From Asanoa ishikariensis (GTDB lineage: Bacteria; Actinomycetota; Actinomycetes; Mycobacteriales; Micromonosporaceae), in NCBI RefSeq assembly GCF_900107455.1, contig NZ_FNQB01000001.1, forward strand, positions 496,001 through 560,000: 64,000 nt of DNA, in the 5' to 3' direction. The position numbers and the translations under genes are program-made. Under the pieces are notes generated by a model. The model was not told the DNA's origin, did no database searches, and was given only the letters and a program-made list of their open reading frames with translations. Shown here piece by piece: positions 1,468 through 47,704 of this stretch. The stretch's first letter is position 1. Each line of letters opens with the position of its first letter.

Positions 1468-1500
1468 GCATCGGTCGGCATCGTTCCTAGCGTCATAGGC

Positions 1501-2169
1501 ATGACAACAGCGATCATCACCGGCGCGTCCCGAGGCCTTGGGCGCGCACTCACCGGCGGCCTGGCTCGCGCCGGCTGGAACGTCGTCGTCGACGGCCGCG
1601 ACGGTGCGGCCCTGGCTGCCGTCGGTTTCGGGCGTGGGGTCACCCCCGTCGTCGGTTCGGTCGCCGACCCCGAGCACCTGGTCGCGCTGGTCGAGGCGGC
1701 CGACCGCCTCGGCGGCGCCGATCTGCTGGTCAACAACGCCGGGATTCTGGGGCCCTCGCCGCAGCCGCGGATCGCCGACTATCCGATCGAGGCGTGGCGC
1801 GAGGTGTACGAGATCAACGTGCACGCGCCGCTGGCGCTCACCCAGCTCACCCTGCCAGGACTGCGCAAGCGCGGCGGGGCCGTGCTCAACGTGACCTCGG
1901 ACGCGGCCATCGAGGCGTACGCCGGCTGGGGCGGCTACGGCTCGGCGAAGGCGGCGCTGGAGCAGGCGAGCCGGATCCTGGCGGCCGAAGAACCGGACGT
2001 GCGGGTGTGGTGGGCCGACCCGGGCGACCTGCGTACCCGGATGCATCAGGAGGCCTTCCCCGGCGAGGACATCAGCGACCGTCCGGAGCCGGAGTCGGTC
2101 GTGCCCTCGTTCCTCCGCCTGTTGGCCGCGCGGCCGGAGTCGGGCCGGGTCCGGGTCGCGCAGTGGTGA
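1501..2169 (+). CDS. Short-chain dehydrogenase/reductase (SDR)
   Basis: The protein has 222 residues from ATG 1501. It shows the classical SDR signature: NAD(P)-binding TGASRGLG at the N-terminus, the structural NNAG motif, catalytic Ser in NVTSD, and the YxxxK pair in YGSAK. The length is near the short end for classical SDRs (about 250). The substrate cannot be read from the sequence. It overlaps the next gene by 4 bases (GTGA), so the two are probably co-translated, and it diverges from the two-component genes across a palindrome-rich region that may control it. Confidence 0.88.
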   Translation: MTTAIITGASRGLGRALTGGLARAGWNVVVDGRDGAALAAVGFGRGVTPVVGSVADPEHLVALVEAADRLGGADLLVNNAGILGPSPQPRIADYPIEAWREVYEINVHAPLALTQLTLPGLRKRGGAVLNVTSDAAIEAYAGWGGYGSAKAALEQASRILAAEEPDVRVWWADPGDLRTRMHQEAFPGEDISDRPEPESVVPSFLRLLAARPESGRVRVAQW

Positions 2170-3164
2170 CCGCGACCGGGTCGCCGATCGACTTCGTGCT
2201 GCCGGACGAGCTGTCGGCCCACGAGCCGCCGGAGGCCCGCGGTGTGCCACGCGACGGGGTACGGATGCTCGTCTCGACCCCGTACGCCCAATCGCACCGG
2301 ATCTTCCGGGAGCTGCCCGACGTGCTGTGCCCGGGCGACGTGTTGGTGGTCAACACGTCGGCGACGGTGCCGGCCGCGGTGCCCACCCTCGGCGGACCTG
2401 CCGTGCATTTCTCCACGGCCAACCCGGACGGCACGTGGTTGGTCGAGCCGCGCGGCCCGTTGGCCTCGACCGCCGCCGCCGGGCAACGGCTGGACCTGCG
2501 CGGCGGAGGATCGGTGACGCTGCTCTCGCCGTACTCCCGCGGTCGGCTCTGGGTCGCGTCCTTGTCGTTCGGCGATGTCCACGCTTATCTGCGTTCACAC
2601 GGTTCGCCCATCCGGTACGACTATGTGCCGAAGGCCTGGCCGTTGTCGGCTTATCAGACGGTGTTCGCCACCCAGCCCGGCAGCGCCGAGATGCCCAGCG
2701 CCGGCCGGCCGTTCACCGACCGGGTGGTCACGCGGCTGGTCGCCGCCGGCGTGCAGGTGGTGCCGATCGTGCTGCACACGGGGGTGGCGTCGGCGGAGGC
2801 GCACGAACGGCCGTACCCGGAATGGTTCTCGGTCCCCGCCACCACCGCGCGGGTGCTCGCGGGCGCCCGGCGGGTGATCGCGGTCGGCACGACCGTGGTC
2901 CGGGCGCTGGAGACCACCGGAGGCGCGGCCGGCTCGGGTTGGACCGACCTGGTGGTGACACCGGAGCGGGGCGTGCGGGTCGTGGACGGCTTGCTGACGG
3001 GGTTCCACGAACCGCGCGCCTCGCACCTCGATCTGCTTGCCGCGGTGGCGGGTCCGGACCTGGTCGCCCGGTCCTATCGGGAGGCCCTCGCGGCCGGTTA
3101 CCGCTGGCACGAGTTCGGTGACGTCAACTTGCTGCTGTCGGAGCGGGCTTCCGCAGCGGTATAG
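2166..3164 (+). CDS. QueA-like S-adenosylmethionine:tRNA ribosyltransferase-isomerase family protein
   Basis: The protein has 332 residues, starting at GTG 2166 (GTG 2163 is also possible). The whole sequence has the QueA fold pattern: an N-terminal DFVLPDEL..HEPPEARG segment, an ST-rich central part (YDYVPKAWPLSAYQTVFA, GSAEMPSAGRPFT), and a C-terminal TTVVRALE...TGFHEPRASHLDLLAAV segment. QueA transfers ribose from S-adenosylmethionine to preQ1-modified tRNA in queuosine synthesis. No tgt, queG or queuosine gene is nearby, and it is coupled to an SDR, so it may be a paralogue with another substrate. The family is clear; the reaction is not. Confidence 0.8.
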   Translation: MTATGSPIDFVLPDELSAHEPPEARGVPRDGVRMLVSTPYAQSHRIFRELPDVLCPGDVLVVNTSATVPAAVPTLGGPAVHFSTANPDGTWLVEPRGPLASTAAAGQRLDLRGGGSVTLLSPYSRGRLWVASLSFGDVHAYLRSHGSPIRYDYVPKAWPLSAYQTVFATQPGSAEMPSAGRPFTDRVVTRLVAAGVQVVPIVLHTGVASAEAHERPYPEWFSVPATTARVLAGARRVIAVGTTVVRALETTGGAAGSGWTDLVVTPERGVRVVDGLLTGFHEPRASHLDLLAAVAGPDLVARSYREALAAGYRWHEFGDVNLLLSERASAAV

Positions 3165-44234: not shown

Positions 44235-45731
44235 ATGAGCACACCGCGTTTGTGGTTTCTGACCGGCAGCCAGGAGCTCTACGGCGCGGACACGCTGCGC
44301 CAAGTGGCTGAGCAGTCGCAACGGATCGCCGCCGTGCTGGACGCGTCCGCCGACGTGCCGACCGCGGTGGAGTGGCAGCCGGTGCTCACCTCGGCCGAAG
44401 CCATCCTGAGTTGCTGCCGGGCCGCGGCCAACACCGAGGGCGTCGTCGGTGTGATCGCGTGGATGCACACGTTCTCGCCGGCCAAGATGTGGATCGCCGG
44501 GCTCGACGCGCTCGACGTGCCGCTGCTGCACCTGCACACCCAGTCCAATGTGGCCTTGCCGTGGGCCGACATCGACATGGACTTCATGAACCTCAACCAG
44601 GCGGCACACGGCGACCGCGAGTTCGGGTACGTGCAGACCCGGCTCGGCGTGGCCCGCAAGACGGTGGCCGGACACGTCAGCGACCCCCGGGTGACCGCTC
44701 GGATCGGCACGTGGGCGCGGGCCGCGCTCGGCCGGGCGGAGCTGCGCTCGCTGCGGTTGGCCCGGTTCGGCGACAACATGCGGAACGTCGCGGTCACCGA
44801 GGGCGACAAGGTCGAGGCCCAGGTGCGCTTCGGGGTCTCGGTCAACACGTACGGGGTGACCGACCTGGCCGACGCCGTCGCGGCCGCCTCCGACTCCGAT
44901 GTGGACAAGCTGGTCACCGAATACGACTCGCTCTACCGCCTCGACCCCGCGCTGCGGGCCGGCGGCGCGCGGCACGAGTCGCTTCGCTATGCCGGGCGGA
45001 TCGAGCTCGGACTGCGCTCGTTCCTGGATGCCGGCGGCTTCCGGGCCTTCACCACGAACTTCGAGGACCTGGGGGCGCTGCGCCAGTTGCCGGGCCTCGC
45101 GGTGCAGCGCCTCATGGCTGACGGCTATGGCTTCGGCGGCGAGGGCGACTGGAAGACCGCGGTGCTGGTGCGCACCCTCAAGGCGATGTCGGCCGGCCAG
45201 TCCGGCGGCACGTCGTTCATGGAGGACTACACGTACGACCTGACTCCCGGCCACGAACGCACACTGGGCGCGCACATGCTGGAGGTCTGCCCGTCGATCG
45301 CCGGTGAGACCCCACGCGCCGAGATCCACCCGCTGTCGATCGGCGGCCGCGAAGACCCGGTGCGGCTGGTCTTCGACGCCGCACCCGGCCCGGCGGTCGT
45401 GGTCGGGCTCGCGGACCTCGGTGAGCGGTTCCGGCTGGTCGCCAACGAGGTCGACGTGGTGCCGGCGGACCACCCGCTGCCCAAGCTCCCGGTGGCGCGG
45501 GCGATCTGGATCCCGCGCCCCGACCTGCTTACGTCGGCCGAGGCCTGGCTGACCGCGGGCGGGCCGCACCACACGGCGCTGTCCCAGGCGATCGGGACGG
45601 CGGAGTTGCACGACCTGGCCGAGATGACCGGCACCGAGCTCGCCCTGATCGACGGCCAGACCACCGTGCGGCGGTTCGTGCAGGAGCTGCGCTGGACGGC
45701 GGCGTACCACCGGCTCGCTCGCGGTTTGTAA
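44235..45731 (+). CDS. araA: L-arabinose isomerase
   Basis: The protein has 498 residues from ATG 44235 with GGGGAG upstream. It matches AraA along its length: [73 protein letters not shown], the metal/catalytic region [20 protein letters not shown] and [29 protein letters not shown], and the late GGPHHTALS. It converts L-arabinose to L-ribulose in the cytoplasm. It ends the operon; no araD epimerase gene is present here. Confidence 0.96.
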
Positions 45732-45754: not shown

Positions 45755-46798
45755 TCAGAGCTTCACTGGCATGAGAAGCGAGTAGGCGCGGTCGTCGGTC
45801 GGGCGGCGAATCGCGAGCGGGCGGATCGGGCCGTCGAGCTCGAGCACGAGCTGGCCGTCGCCGCTCGCGTTCAGGGCGTCGAGCAGGAACTCGCGATTGA
45901 CGGCGACGTGCTCGTCGGCGCCGGCCTCCCACTCCTGCTCGCCGACCACGTTGACCCCACCGCTGCTCCCGATGGCCAGCACGACGAGCTCGTGGTCGTG
46001 GCGCACCACCCGCGGGGTGTCGTTCGCCGTGAGCGTCGCGCGCAGCGCATTGGCGTCGACCGGTGCGAGGCGCGGGCTGCCGCCGGCGGCGCGCGCTTCG
46101 ATCGCCCGGCGCCAGTCGGTGTAGTCGTACGCCAGCGGCTTGTCCTTGATCGCCCAACCGGCGCCGGACGCCTCGATCGTCTCTGTGTCCAGGTGCAGGG
46201 TGATCGGCTCTTCCTTCTCGTGCGCGCGGAGCCGGTCGACCCAGTCGAGCGGCGCGATCACCCTCTTCGGCGCCCCGTCGACCGCGGCGGGCTCCCGGTG
46301 GATCGCCATCCGGTAGCGATCGGTGGCCACGAAGATCACGGCGTCGGCCTCGACCTCGACCAGGACGCCGGAGAGCATCGGCAGCTCGGGATCGAGGCCG
46401 GCGGCGAAGCGGACATCGCCGAGCGCGGCGATCAGGGCGGCGCGGCTCAGGGTCACGGTGGTCATGGGGTACTCCTGCGTATCGAGAAGGGCATGGACGC
46501 GGGAGAGCTCACGGCGGGCATCGCACAAGCCGGCCTCGAGCCGGTGCAGGTGCCTCTCTAGCATCTGGTGCCCGGCCGCCGCGTCTGTGCTCAAGACGGC
46601 GGCGATCTCGGCGACCGGCATTCCGACCCGGCGCAGGCCGGCAACCAGGCGGGCTTGACGGATCTGCCGGTCGGTGTACCAGCGGTAGCCGTTCTCCGGG
46701 TCCACCAGCGCCGGCACGAGCACGCCTTCGCGGTCGTAGAACCGCAGCGCGCTCACGCTCAGCCCACTGGCCCGGGCCGTCTCGCCGATGCTCCGCAT
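45755..46798 (-). CDS. MerR-type regulator fused to a two-domain DNA polymerase III beta-clamp-like region
   Basis: The protein has 347 residues from ATG 46798, with GGAG six bases upstream. Residues 1-105 are a MerR head and coiled-coil helix (MRSIGETARASGLSVSALRFYDREGVLVP, GYRWYTDRQIRQARLVAGLRRVGMP). Residues 112-347 resemble DnaN domains II and III: FAAGLDPELPMLSGVLVEVE, IFVATDRYRMAIHRE, then EHVAVNREFLLDALNAS, LDGPIRPLAIRRP and the terminal YSLLMPVKL, close to the normal clamp ending. Clamp domain I is absent. The clamp fold probably serves as a sensor or assembly module, or competes for clamp partners (inference). A MerR-type promoter precedes it. Confidence 0.85.
   Translation of the reverse strand: MRSIGETARASGLSVSALRFYDREGVLVPALVDPENGYRWYTDRQIRQARLVAGLRRVGMPVAEIAAVLSTDAAAGHQMLERHLHRLEAGLCDARRELSRVHALLDTQEYPMTTVTLSRAALIAALGDVRFAAGLDPELPMLSGVLVEVEADAVIFVATDRYRMAIHREPAAVDGAPKRVIAPLDWVDRLRAHEKEEPITLHLDTETIEASGAGWAIKDKPLAYDYTDWRRAIEARAAGGSPRLAPVDANALRATLTANDTPRVVRHDHELVVLAIGSSGGVNVVGEQEWEAGADEHVAVNREFLLDALNASGDGQLVLELDGPIRPLAIRRPTDDRAYSLLMPVKL
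46465..46476 (-). promoter_or_regulatory. Internal ribosome site and ATG at the clamp boundary
   Basis: AGGAG (46476-46472) stands six bases before an in-frame ATG at 46465, exactly at the junction between the MerR linker and the first clamp-like strand (MTTVTLSRAALIAALG). It could start a clamp-only product of 236 residues, or it may be a relic of two separate genes. Confidence 0.45.
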
Positions 46799-46817
46799 GT
46801 CGCTCTCCACATCCCTG

Positions 46818-46848
46818 ACCGTGGTGCCTCGACCAGGTCGAGGGTCAA
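46818..46848 (-). promoter_or_regulatory. MerR-type promoter with 19-base spacer and central dyad
   Basis: On the minus strand, -35 TTGACC (46848-46843) and -10 CACGGT (46823-46818) are 19 bases apart, the stretched spacing typical of MerR-activated promoters. The spacer carries the dyad CCTCGACCAGGTCGAGG (46827-46843), perfect around one central base. It points to autoregulation of the MerR-clamp gene and perhaps control of the divergent oxidoreductase. Confidence 0.7.
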
Positions 46849-46888: not shown

Positions 46889-47704
46889 ATGAGGTACGGG
46901 GTGATTCTGCCCGGCGGGCCGGCCGGTGAGCAGGTCGAGCAGGCTGTTATGGCCGAGCAGGCCGGCTGGGACGCGGTGTTCGTGTGGGAGGCGGCCTACG
47001 GCGTCGATGCCTGGTCACTGCTGGCCGCGATGGCTGTGGCGACCGCCCGGGTCCGCCTGGGCACCATGCTGACGCCGCTGCCGTGGCGCCGCCCGTGGAA
47101 GGTCGCCAGCCAGGTCGCGACCCTCGACCAGCTCTCCGGCGGGCGGGCGGTGCTGACCGTCGGCCTGGGCGCGATAGCGACCGATCTGCCCGACACAGGG
47201 GAGGTGGTCGACCGGCGCGGCCGGGCCCTACGCCTCGACGAGGGCATCGACCTGATTCGAGCGCTCTGGGGCGGGTCGACCAGCTTCCACGGTGCGCACT
47301 ACGACTACGAGTGCGCCCGCTCCGACCTGACCGAGGCGGTCCAGCCCGTCCAGTCGCGCATCCCGATCTGGGTCGTGGCGCGCTGGCCGCGACCACGCTC
47401 GATGCAGCGGGTGCTGCGCTGCGACGGGGTGGTCCCCGAGTTCGACGGCGACGGGGGTCCGGCCGGCGTGCGTGCGCTGCGCGGGTGGCTCGCGGAGCAG
47501 GGCGTCCCGGCGGGATACGACGTGATCGCCGAGGGCGAGACGCCGGTCGATGATCGCGTCGCGGCGGCTGACATCGTCACGCCCTGGGCAGACGCGGGGG
47601 CGACCTGGTGGTTGGAGTCGCGCTGGGAGATGCCGCACCACACCCCGGCACGAATGACCCAGATCCGCGAACGGATCGCCGCCGGCCCACCGGAGGCATC
47701 TTGA
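46889..47704 (+). CDS. Luciferase-like (LLM class) flavin/F420-dependent oxidoreductase
   Basis: The protein has 271 residues from ATG 46889. The TIM-barrel LLM pattern is visible: MRYGVILPGG at strand 1, AEQAGWDAVFVWEA, ARVRLGTMLTPLPWRRPWKVASQVATLDQLSGGRAVLTVGLG, LDEGIDLIRALWGG and IPIWVVARWPR. Such enzymes use FMNH2 or F420; the substrate cannot be inferred. It lacks a strong ribosome site near the ATG. It diverges from the MerR-clamp gene across a MerR-type dyad, so it may belong to that regulon. Confidence 0.82.
   Translation: MRYGVILPGGPAGEQVEQAVMAEQAGWDAVFVWEAAYGVDAWSLLAAMAVATARVRLGTMLTPLPWRRPWKVASQVATLDQLSGGRAVLTVGLGAIATDLPDTGEVVDRRGRALRLDEGIDLIRALWGGSTSFHGAHYDYECARSDLTEAVQPVQSRIPIWVVARWPRPRSMQRVLRCDGVVPEFDGDGGPAGVRALRGWLAEQGVPAGYDVIAEGETPVDDRVAAADIVTPWADAGATWWLESRWEMPHHTPARMTQIRERIAAGPPEAS

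Follow-up and report, generated by a model that had tools for sequence, protein, structure and literature searches.

A MerR-type regulator carrying half of a DnaN sliding clamp in Asanoa ishikariensis and related actinomycetes

In the actinomycete Asanoa ishikariensis, a gene within the 64,000-nucleotide stretch of DNA analysed here (the window; contig NZ_FNQB01000001.1, positions 496,001 to 560,000) encodes a MerR DNA-binding head and coiled coil fused to domains II and III of the sliding clamp DnaN. Comparison with relatives reveals that this clamp half has largely kept its cleft and has lost parts of the ring, that the gene carries a MerR-type operator, and that the same operator is associated with other genes across the family. 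We propose, with as much confidence as doubt, that the protein is an autoregulated MerR activator whose sensor is a degenerate half of DnaN, detecting ligands of the cleft such as griselimycin-type antibiotics. The main rival is that it serves clamp homeostasis, reading an endogenous signal of clamp occupancy.

A fusion at the border between clamp domains

Counted from ATG 46798 to the stop at 45755 on the minus strand, the open reading frame encodes 347 residues (Table 1). The fusion is real, since Pfam, the NCBIfam profile for DnaN (TIGR00663), phmmer and Foldseek all agree on it. The head scores 55 bits against MerR_1 (cut-off 21.6), PF02768 matches residues 289-345 (E 1.6e-6), and TIGR00663 aligns residues 112-347 with profile positions 124-367 of 367 (E 1.1e-17), its score of 64 bits lying below the model's equivalog cut-off of 137.65. 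The protein is thus no three-domain DnaN: domains II and III are present up to the C-terminus, domain I is missing, and the MerR head and coiled coil join the clamp at the domain I/II border. A preliminary description, made from the sequence alone, had proposed that a MerR head replaces clamp domain I and that the 236 C-terminal residues retain the hallmarks of domains II and III; both proposals are upheld by these matches. That description had also named an outcome that would count against it, namely a profile search finding residues 112-347 unrelated to DnaN, and Pfam and TIGR00663 found the opposite.

Searches of the PDB with phmmer led from the head to MerR proteins (best match EcmrR, residues 5-108, E 3.1e-12) and from the remainder to sliding clamps. 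The TipAS effector domain (PF07739) had no Pfam match in the window protein up to E 1. Structure prediction had been suggested earlier as a check. AlphaFold models built from three sequences were too weak for detail (mean pLDDT 54 and 58). Among their Foldseek neighbours, all 50 matches listed for the first weak model are named sliding clamp or polymerase III beta, or complexes of these; the same holds for 48 of the 50 matches listed for the second, where the other two chains come from one entry, named Mismatch Repair Complex.

Table 1. Features of the regulator gene in window coordinates, with two partner genes from relatives in the coordinates of their own loci
Feature	Position	Strand	Details
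MerR-clamp regulator gene	45755..46810	-	Likely GTG start 46810 (VESDMRSIGE...); alternative ATG 46798
MerR winged-helix DNA-binding domain, residues 3-70	46589..46792	-	Pfam MerR_1, E 9e-15
Linker/coiled coil, about residues 71-108	46475..46588	-	Predicted helices 73-87 and 92-106, low-confidence model
Sliding-clamp domain II, residues 117-215	46154..46450	-	Pfam DNA_pol3_beta_2 (PF02767), E 2.1e-11; Foldseek matches are sliding clamps
Clamp domain III, C-terminal part (residues 289-347), including the cleft's terminal SLLMPVKL	45758..45934	-	Pfam PF02768
Possible internal translation start	46463..46477	-	CAGGAG, 6 nt, ATG at residue 112; putative function
MerR-type operator/promoter TTGACCCTCGACCTGGTCGAGGCACCACGGT	46818..46848	-	-35 at 46848-46843, 19-bp spacer with palindrome, -10 at 46823-46818
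Distant-clade TPR-like genes, examples	L070:7091-7744; L071:5091-5744		Adjoin the regulator; 11 other loci

A retained cleft in a broken ring

The clamp half of 119 close and ten distant homologues was compared in an alignment with 31 true DnaN proteins, namely 30 from the family plus E. coli beta, whose numbering is used here. Twelve columns that we take to form the protein-binding cleft of DnaN show higher conservation than the clamp half's other columns (Mann-Whitney p 6.5e-5). Among these, T172, R176, M362 and P363 are invariant in all 119 close homologues, the R365 position holds Arg in 112 and Lys in six, and P242 is kept in 112, with Thr in the other seven. The window protein is one of the seven, and it carries Ala at the V247 position. 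Loss of the pocket in all homologues had been named as a second outcome that would count against the preliminary description: the cleft is kept in most of them, although the window protein itself departs from it at these two positions. With the cleft largely retained, the earlier suggestion that the regulator senses through it is plausible.

The features that close a ring and track DNA are gone. All 119 close homologues have a deletion of E. coli positions 270-275, which include I272 and L273 and which we assume to be the ring-interface stretch of domain III; in 10 of 10 distant ones, the deletion covers 271-275. Positions K198 and R205, presumably basic residues of the DNA channel, are basic in 1 and 10 of the 119, respectively, versus 31 of 31 true DnaN proteins in both cases. 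E304 is present in every DnaN examined and in seven close homologues, and R246, conversely, is basic in 104 of 119 close homologues but in only 1 of 31 DnaN proteins. Because the cleft is constrained while these features have disappeared, the clamp half is likely to be a cleft sensor and not a clamp.

These losses bear on two further readings. One, raised in the preliminary description, is that the regulator loads onto DNA as a ring or half-ring. It has the clamp fold in its favour, and it finds no domain I, no interface stretch and few of the K198 and R205 side chains to work with; its clamp half, moreover, is slightly more negative than domains II-III of DnaN are (-11.2 vs -7.9, a rough comparison as the stretches differ slightly). 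We regard ring loading as scarcely credible. The structural oddity that had been seen in combining a MerR dimer with a two-domain clamp of the kind that trimerises in PCNA is not pressing, since domain I, the interface stretch and the basic channel residues have been lost. The other reading is that the clamp half pairs with DnaN through domain III, thereby measuring or blocking the real clamp. Retention of domain III and the operator-linked dnaN of one genus (see below) would suit such pairing, and the universal deletion of the interface stretch, together with the scarcity of E304, makes it very improbable.

Promoter, start codon and probable autoregulation

Translation most likely begins at GTG 46810, four codons upstream of ATG 46798, because our start rule assigns a GTG start to 113 of 119 close homologues and several of them have CTG at the position of the window's ATG. 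Upstream of this start, the promoter with a 19-base spacer noted in the preliminary description proved to be a shared property of the group. In the window it reads TTGACC, 19 bp, CACGGT; among homologues it consists of TTGACC, a 19-bp spacer holding the palindrome CTCGACC.GGTCGAG, and a -10 of CAGGGT or CAGGAT. It was found in 118 of the 119 close homologues examined (the exception being L181) and in 12 of 12 distant ones, with a search pattern that imposed the first 8 positions and left the other 23 free. The -10 element at this spacing has A in second place in 117 of the 118 and T in last place in all of them. It ends 7 nt ahead of the GTG in the window and 6-8 nt ahead of the start codon in 113 of the 118 close homologues, a distance that points to a probably leaderless mRNA and to direct autoregulation, with the MerR-type operator forming the regulator's own promoter.

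Within the window, the operator weight matrix (PWM) scores 46.7 at this site and -0.8 at the next best. The window's own genome contains a single mismatch-free copy of the operator core, at the regulator's promoter, and no second site there matches the strict operator pattern. Allowing up to three mismatches gives 48 sites, versus eight for the reversed pattern; of these 48, the exact copy alone was used. The operator lies between the regulator and a divergent luciferase-like monooxygenase gene (46889-47704, plus strand; PF00296), which starts 78 nt from the regulator's GTG. No wider link to the regulator was found for this gene or for araA (44235-45731), both identified by Pfam.

A possible internal start for the clamp half

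At exactly the point where the 236-residue clamp part begins, a Shine-Dalgarno-like GGAG (46475-46472) precedes an ATG (46465-46463), a feature absent from the preliminary description. Of 119 close homologues, 87 have such a motif and start codon at this border, or 94 with relaxed spacing, versus 54-72 in 20 synonymous shuffles and 21 at the next best alignment column. The arrangement is absent in 25-32 of the 119, spread over several lineages, and in 10 of 12 members of the distant clade. Where present, an internal start would yield a stand-alone clamp half of 236 amino acids.

Distribution and relatives

The preliminary description had called for a search for homologues and conserved neighbours. 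Homologues are widespread: of 250 family genomes, 162 have a regulator match at E <= 1e-20, as do 32 of 394 genomes sampled from the class, a sample that includes three genomes of the family. A few family matches near E 1e-25 are more distant relatives. The closest named records come from Asanoa hainanensis (88%) and A. iriomotensis (71%), and a Streptomyces atratus homologue is 47% identical over its full length, with Kitasatospora cathayae at 30%. Around the close-clade gene, even the commonest neighbour family is present in at most 6 of 28 loci. Two neighbour families span several genera (five and four loci; by eye zinc-type dehydrogenases and large LuxR-type regulators), and no function was drawn from them.

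The tree comprises 129 sequences, 119 close and 10 distant, which is fewer proteins than the 162 genomes with a match. Excluded beforehand were L004-L010, which are MerR or DnaN genes from elsewhere in the window's genome, a short MerR without the clamp part (L064), the copies L003, L011 and L014 (of the window, L001 and L002) and duplicate longer loci of the same genes. A further 13 loci were dropped, nine without a start codon in an allowed place, one with masked bases and three extending past the end of the locus, so that 131 remained, the window among them. L056 and L062, outliers in length, were omitted from the alignment and retained in the promoter count. Counts among the 119 are not independent events, because two genera dominate.

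Other origins and roles were considered and set aside. No relative appeared in viral contigs (one scan with six peptide patterns), and 16 records of a phage collection match parts of the protein, with none covering at least 80%. A PADLOC match to the defence gene mad1 spans only residues 3-48 of the MerR head.

Genes linked to the operator in relatives

The strict operator pattern occurs in 137 of the 250 family genomes, all of them among the 162 with the gene; it is lacking in 25 gene-positive genomes and in all 88 gene-negative ones, and a reversed control pattern had no hits. This association is partly trivial, as most hits are the regulator's own promoter. Additional sites were therefore taken from the matches listed, leaving out at least G242 and a second site in G236, and 49 operator regions were examined. 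Two of them turned out to belong to the regulator gene itself or to a truncated version of it; in the truncated case (L251, G236:C1:986287), the operator is followed by a regulator of about 198 amino acids with part of the MerR head missing. Four kinds of gene account for 42 of the other 47 among the matches listed: TPR-like proteins (19), the dnaA-dnaN region (9), YunG proteins (7) and MFS transporters (7). The rest stand ahead of another MerR gene (3) or have nothing assigned (2). Families were grouped by BLAST, with Pfam run on five members: two TPR-like proteins gave weak matches below cut-off, one YunG protein matched PF24585 (E 8.7e-39), and two MFS proteins matched MFS_1 (E 3e-24 and 3.4e-30). 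Among the 33 genes for TPR-like, YunG and MFS proteins, 13 have their picked start codon 6-8 nt past the -10. An MFS transporter is likewise a target in the BmrR-type regulators, as with BmrR and Bmr. Searching the open-access literature for YunG together with MerR returned only plant papers among the matches listed.

The TPR-like protein is the regulator's most consistent partner, because the two are joined by position and fusion in the distant clade and by the operator in the close clade. Of 16 distant-clade loci, 13 carry a TPR-like gene within the flanking sequence covered (the flanks of L054, L059 and L060 gave no match), and it begins -8 to +78 nt behind the regulator in 11 of the 14 loci measured. 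These proteins are 45-56% identical to the best-matching close-clade query. In L062, MerR, clamp and TPR parts form one open frame of 533 residues (reverse strand, 1474-3072 after turning). The window's genome had no match to the one TPR-like query used.

Operator patterns were also sought in sampled genomes of the class. The close-clade pattern occurs in 13 of 388, of which 11 have a gene match. Judged by eye, the two without one carry, after the operator, a regulator frame that looks broken (G473) and a frame of NTF2-like type (G318). A looser distant-clade pattern occurs in 21 of 388, 14 with a gene match. The remaining seven comprise a fainter relative (G499), a clamp remnant without MerR head (G336), another frame (G608) and four sites ahead of other MerR genes. 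In G336 (L320), a distant-type operator precedes a frame whose resemblance is limited to the end of clamp domain III, possibly a remnant, with a TPR-like gene nearby. Three loci of genus g7 (L239, L240 and L241) have a similar operator ahead of a different MerR gene (307-397 amino acids as called), which possibly reflects cross-talk or a second regulator. Since similar operators precede other MerR genes in these three loci and in four genomes of the class, other regulators might share the sites.

An operator upstream of the clamp gene

In genus g4, dnaN has the operator 689-706 nt upstream, oriented towards it, within the dnaA-dnaN (oriC) region. The PWM places it in 38 of 40 g4 genomes (9 of 10 and 29 of 30), at scores of 20.6-43.4 against a threshold of 20; the lowest training operator scores 25.7, and the best background score in 519,800 positions, operators themselves excepted, is 0.6. 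One exception, G003, has the regulator gene and no dnaN site. The other, G180, is not among the regulator-positive genomes and has no strict operator. Motifs that we take to be DnaA-box-like follow the operator in nine g4 dnaN loci. No such site was found in 20 genomes examined outside g4, six of which belong to the same genus as the window, nor upstream of dnaN in the window's own genome. An effect on dnaN is not certain, because the site lies in the oriC region some 690 nt upstream. A second DnaN gene in G010 (L354, G010:C1:8280000-8299000; 64% identical), by eye among phage-like genes, was not counted as operator-linked because there is no operator within 19 kb.

The g4 sites speak for the homeostasis reading. 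Under it, the cleft would bind the cell's own clamp-binding proteins or peptides off the clamp, and the regulator would adjust dnaN and a few helper genes as a sensor of replication stress, with no antibiotic involved. The operator's presence in 38 of 40 g4 genomes, with its absence from G180 alongside the regulator's, is consistent with this, as is the kept cleft, and a wide distribution suits a housekeeping signal. Against it, the MFS transporters under the operator better fit drug defence, the dnaN site is confined to one genus among those examined, and 88 of 250 family genomes have no gene match at E <= 1e-20. We consider homeostasis somewhat unlikely.

A third reading is that the clamp fold is a scaffold for a generic small-molecule sensor, its cleft serving some other metabolite or drug that has nothing to do with clamps. 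This we judge unlikely: the kept residues are among those that we take to bind clamp ligands in true DnaN, and dnaN itself is among the operator-linked genes. Transporters among those genes would fit, and MerR regulators do carry varied effector domains, such as GyrI-like and TipAS domains (excerpts of PMC7762955 and PMC9909328).

Comparison with known systems

BmrR- and EcmrR-type MerR proteins with GyrI-like drug domains have the MerR head and an MFS transporter target in common with the present system, and their effector domain is unrelated. The Streptomyces atratus and Kitasatospora cathayae records annotated 'MerR family transcriptional regulator' contain the same fusion, the clamp part being absent from the annotation; in the Kitasatospora record, Pfam finds MerR and clamp domain II.

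Other near counterparts are TipA of Streptomyces lividans (TipAL/TipAS) and the TipAS-domain regulators Mta, SkgA and AlbA, which likewise combine a MerR head, a coiled coil and a C-terminal ligand domain in an autoregulated gene. TipA uses two start codons, one for the complete regulator and one for its drug-binding domain by itself (excerpt of PMC7762955), and the possible internal start described above resembles this. Unlike in TipA, the ligand domain here is DnaN II-III instead of the TipAS fold, and one genus has the operator upstream of dnaN as well. DnaN and the self-resistance clamps MypR and GriR, the latter two described as DnaN genes that protect the producers of clamp-binding antibiotics (excerpt of PMC10817943), share domains II-III and the cleft with the window regulator. 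The regulator differs from all three in being fused to a DNA-binding head and in lacking domain I, the ring interface and most basic channel residues. A MerR-DnaN fusion was not found described in the open-access literature searched by title and the start of the abstract, and MerR does not occur in the available excerpt of a paper on clamp-binding antibiotics (PMC10817943).

A proposed alarm for clamp ligands

Our preferred reading, that of a MerR activator sensing cleft ligands, involves steps that we infer from these comparisons. A ligand of the cleft, most likely an antibiotic of the griselimycin/mycoplanecin kind or a similar peptide, would bind the clamp half of the DNA-bound dimer, and MerR-type distortion of the 19-bp-spacer promoter would switch on the regulator gene itself. 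In many homologues, a separate soluble clamp half made from the internal start may soak up ligand, much as TipAS does with thiopeptides. In relatives, the same operator would add a TPR-like protein, a YunG protein and an MFS transporter, and in one genus it would act as a promoter directed towards dnaN, which presumably encodes the drug's target.

Clamp-binding antibiotics could account for cleft retention, transporters and dnaN together, because griselimycin resistance in mycobacteria is associated with amplification of segments containing dnaN (excerpt of PMC8765428). The DnaN cleft binds griselimycins as well as partner proteins (excerpt of PMC8765428), and mycoplanecin contacts Arg365 of the clamp (excerpt of PMC10817943). 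Occurrence in 162 of 250 genomes is a broad spread for one antibiotic class, and we count this against the alarm. In its fullest form, the proposal makes both sensor and sponge from half of an antibiotic's target: the fused half senses and the internally started half traps clamp blockers, while the switch raises transporters and the TPR-like partner, joined in one genus by the gene for the clamp. That combined version is possible though doubtful.

Cyclohexyl-griselimycin is a preclinical candidate against tuberculosis (excerpt of PMC8765428), and the regulator offers a reporter for discovering clamp-binding antibiotics. A transcription factor with a degenerate clamp as sensor and operators in the oriC region would link clamp occupancy to gene control. 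Given the operator upstream of the real clamp gene in relatives, the regulator may warn the cell of clamp-blocking molecules; if so, these bacteria would possess a ready-made alarm for natural clamp inhibitors.
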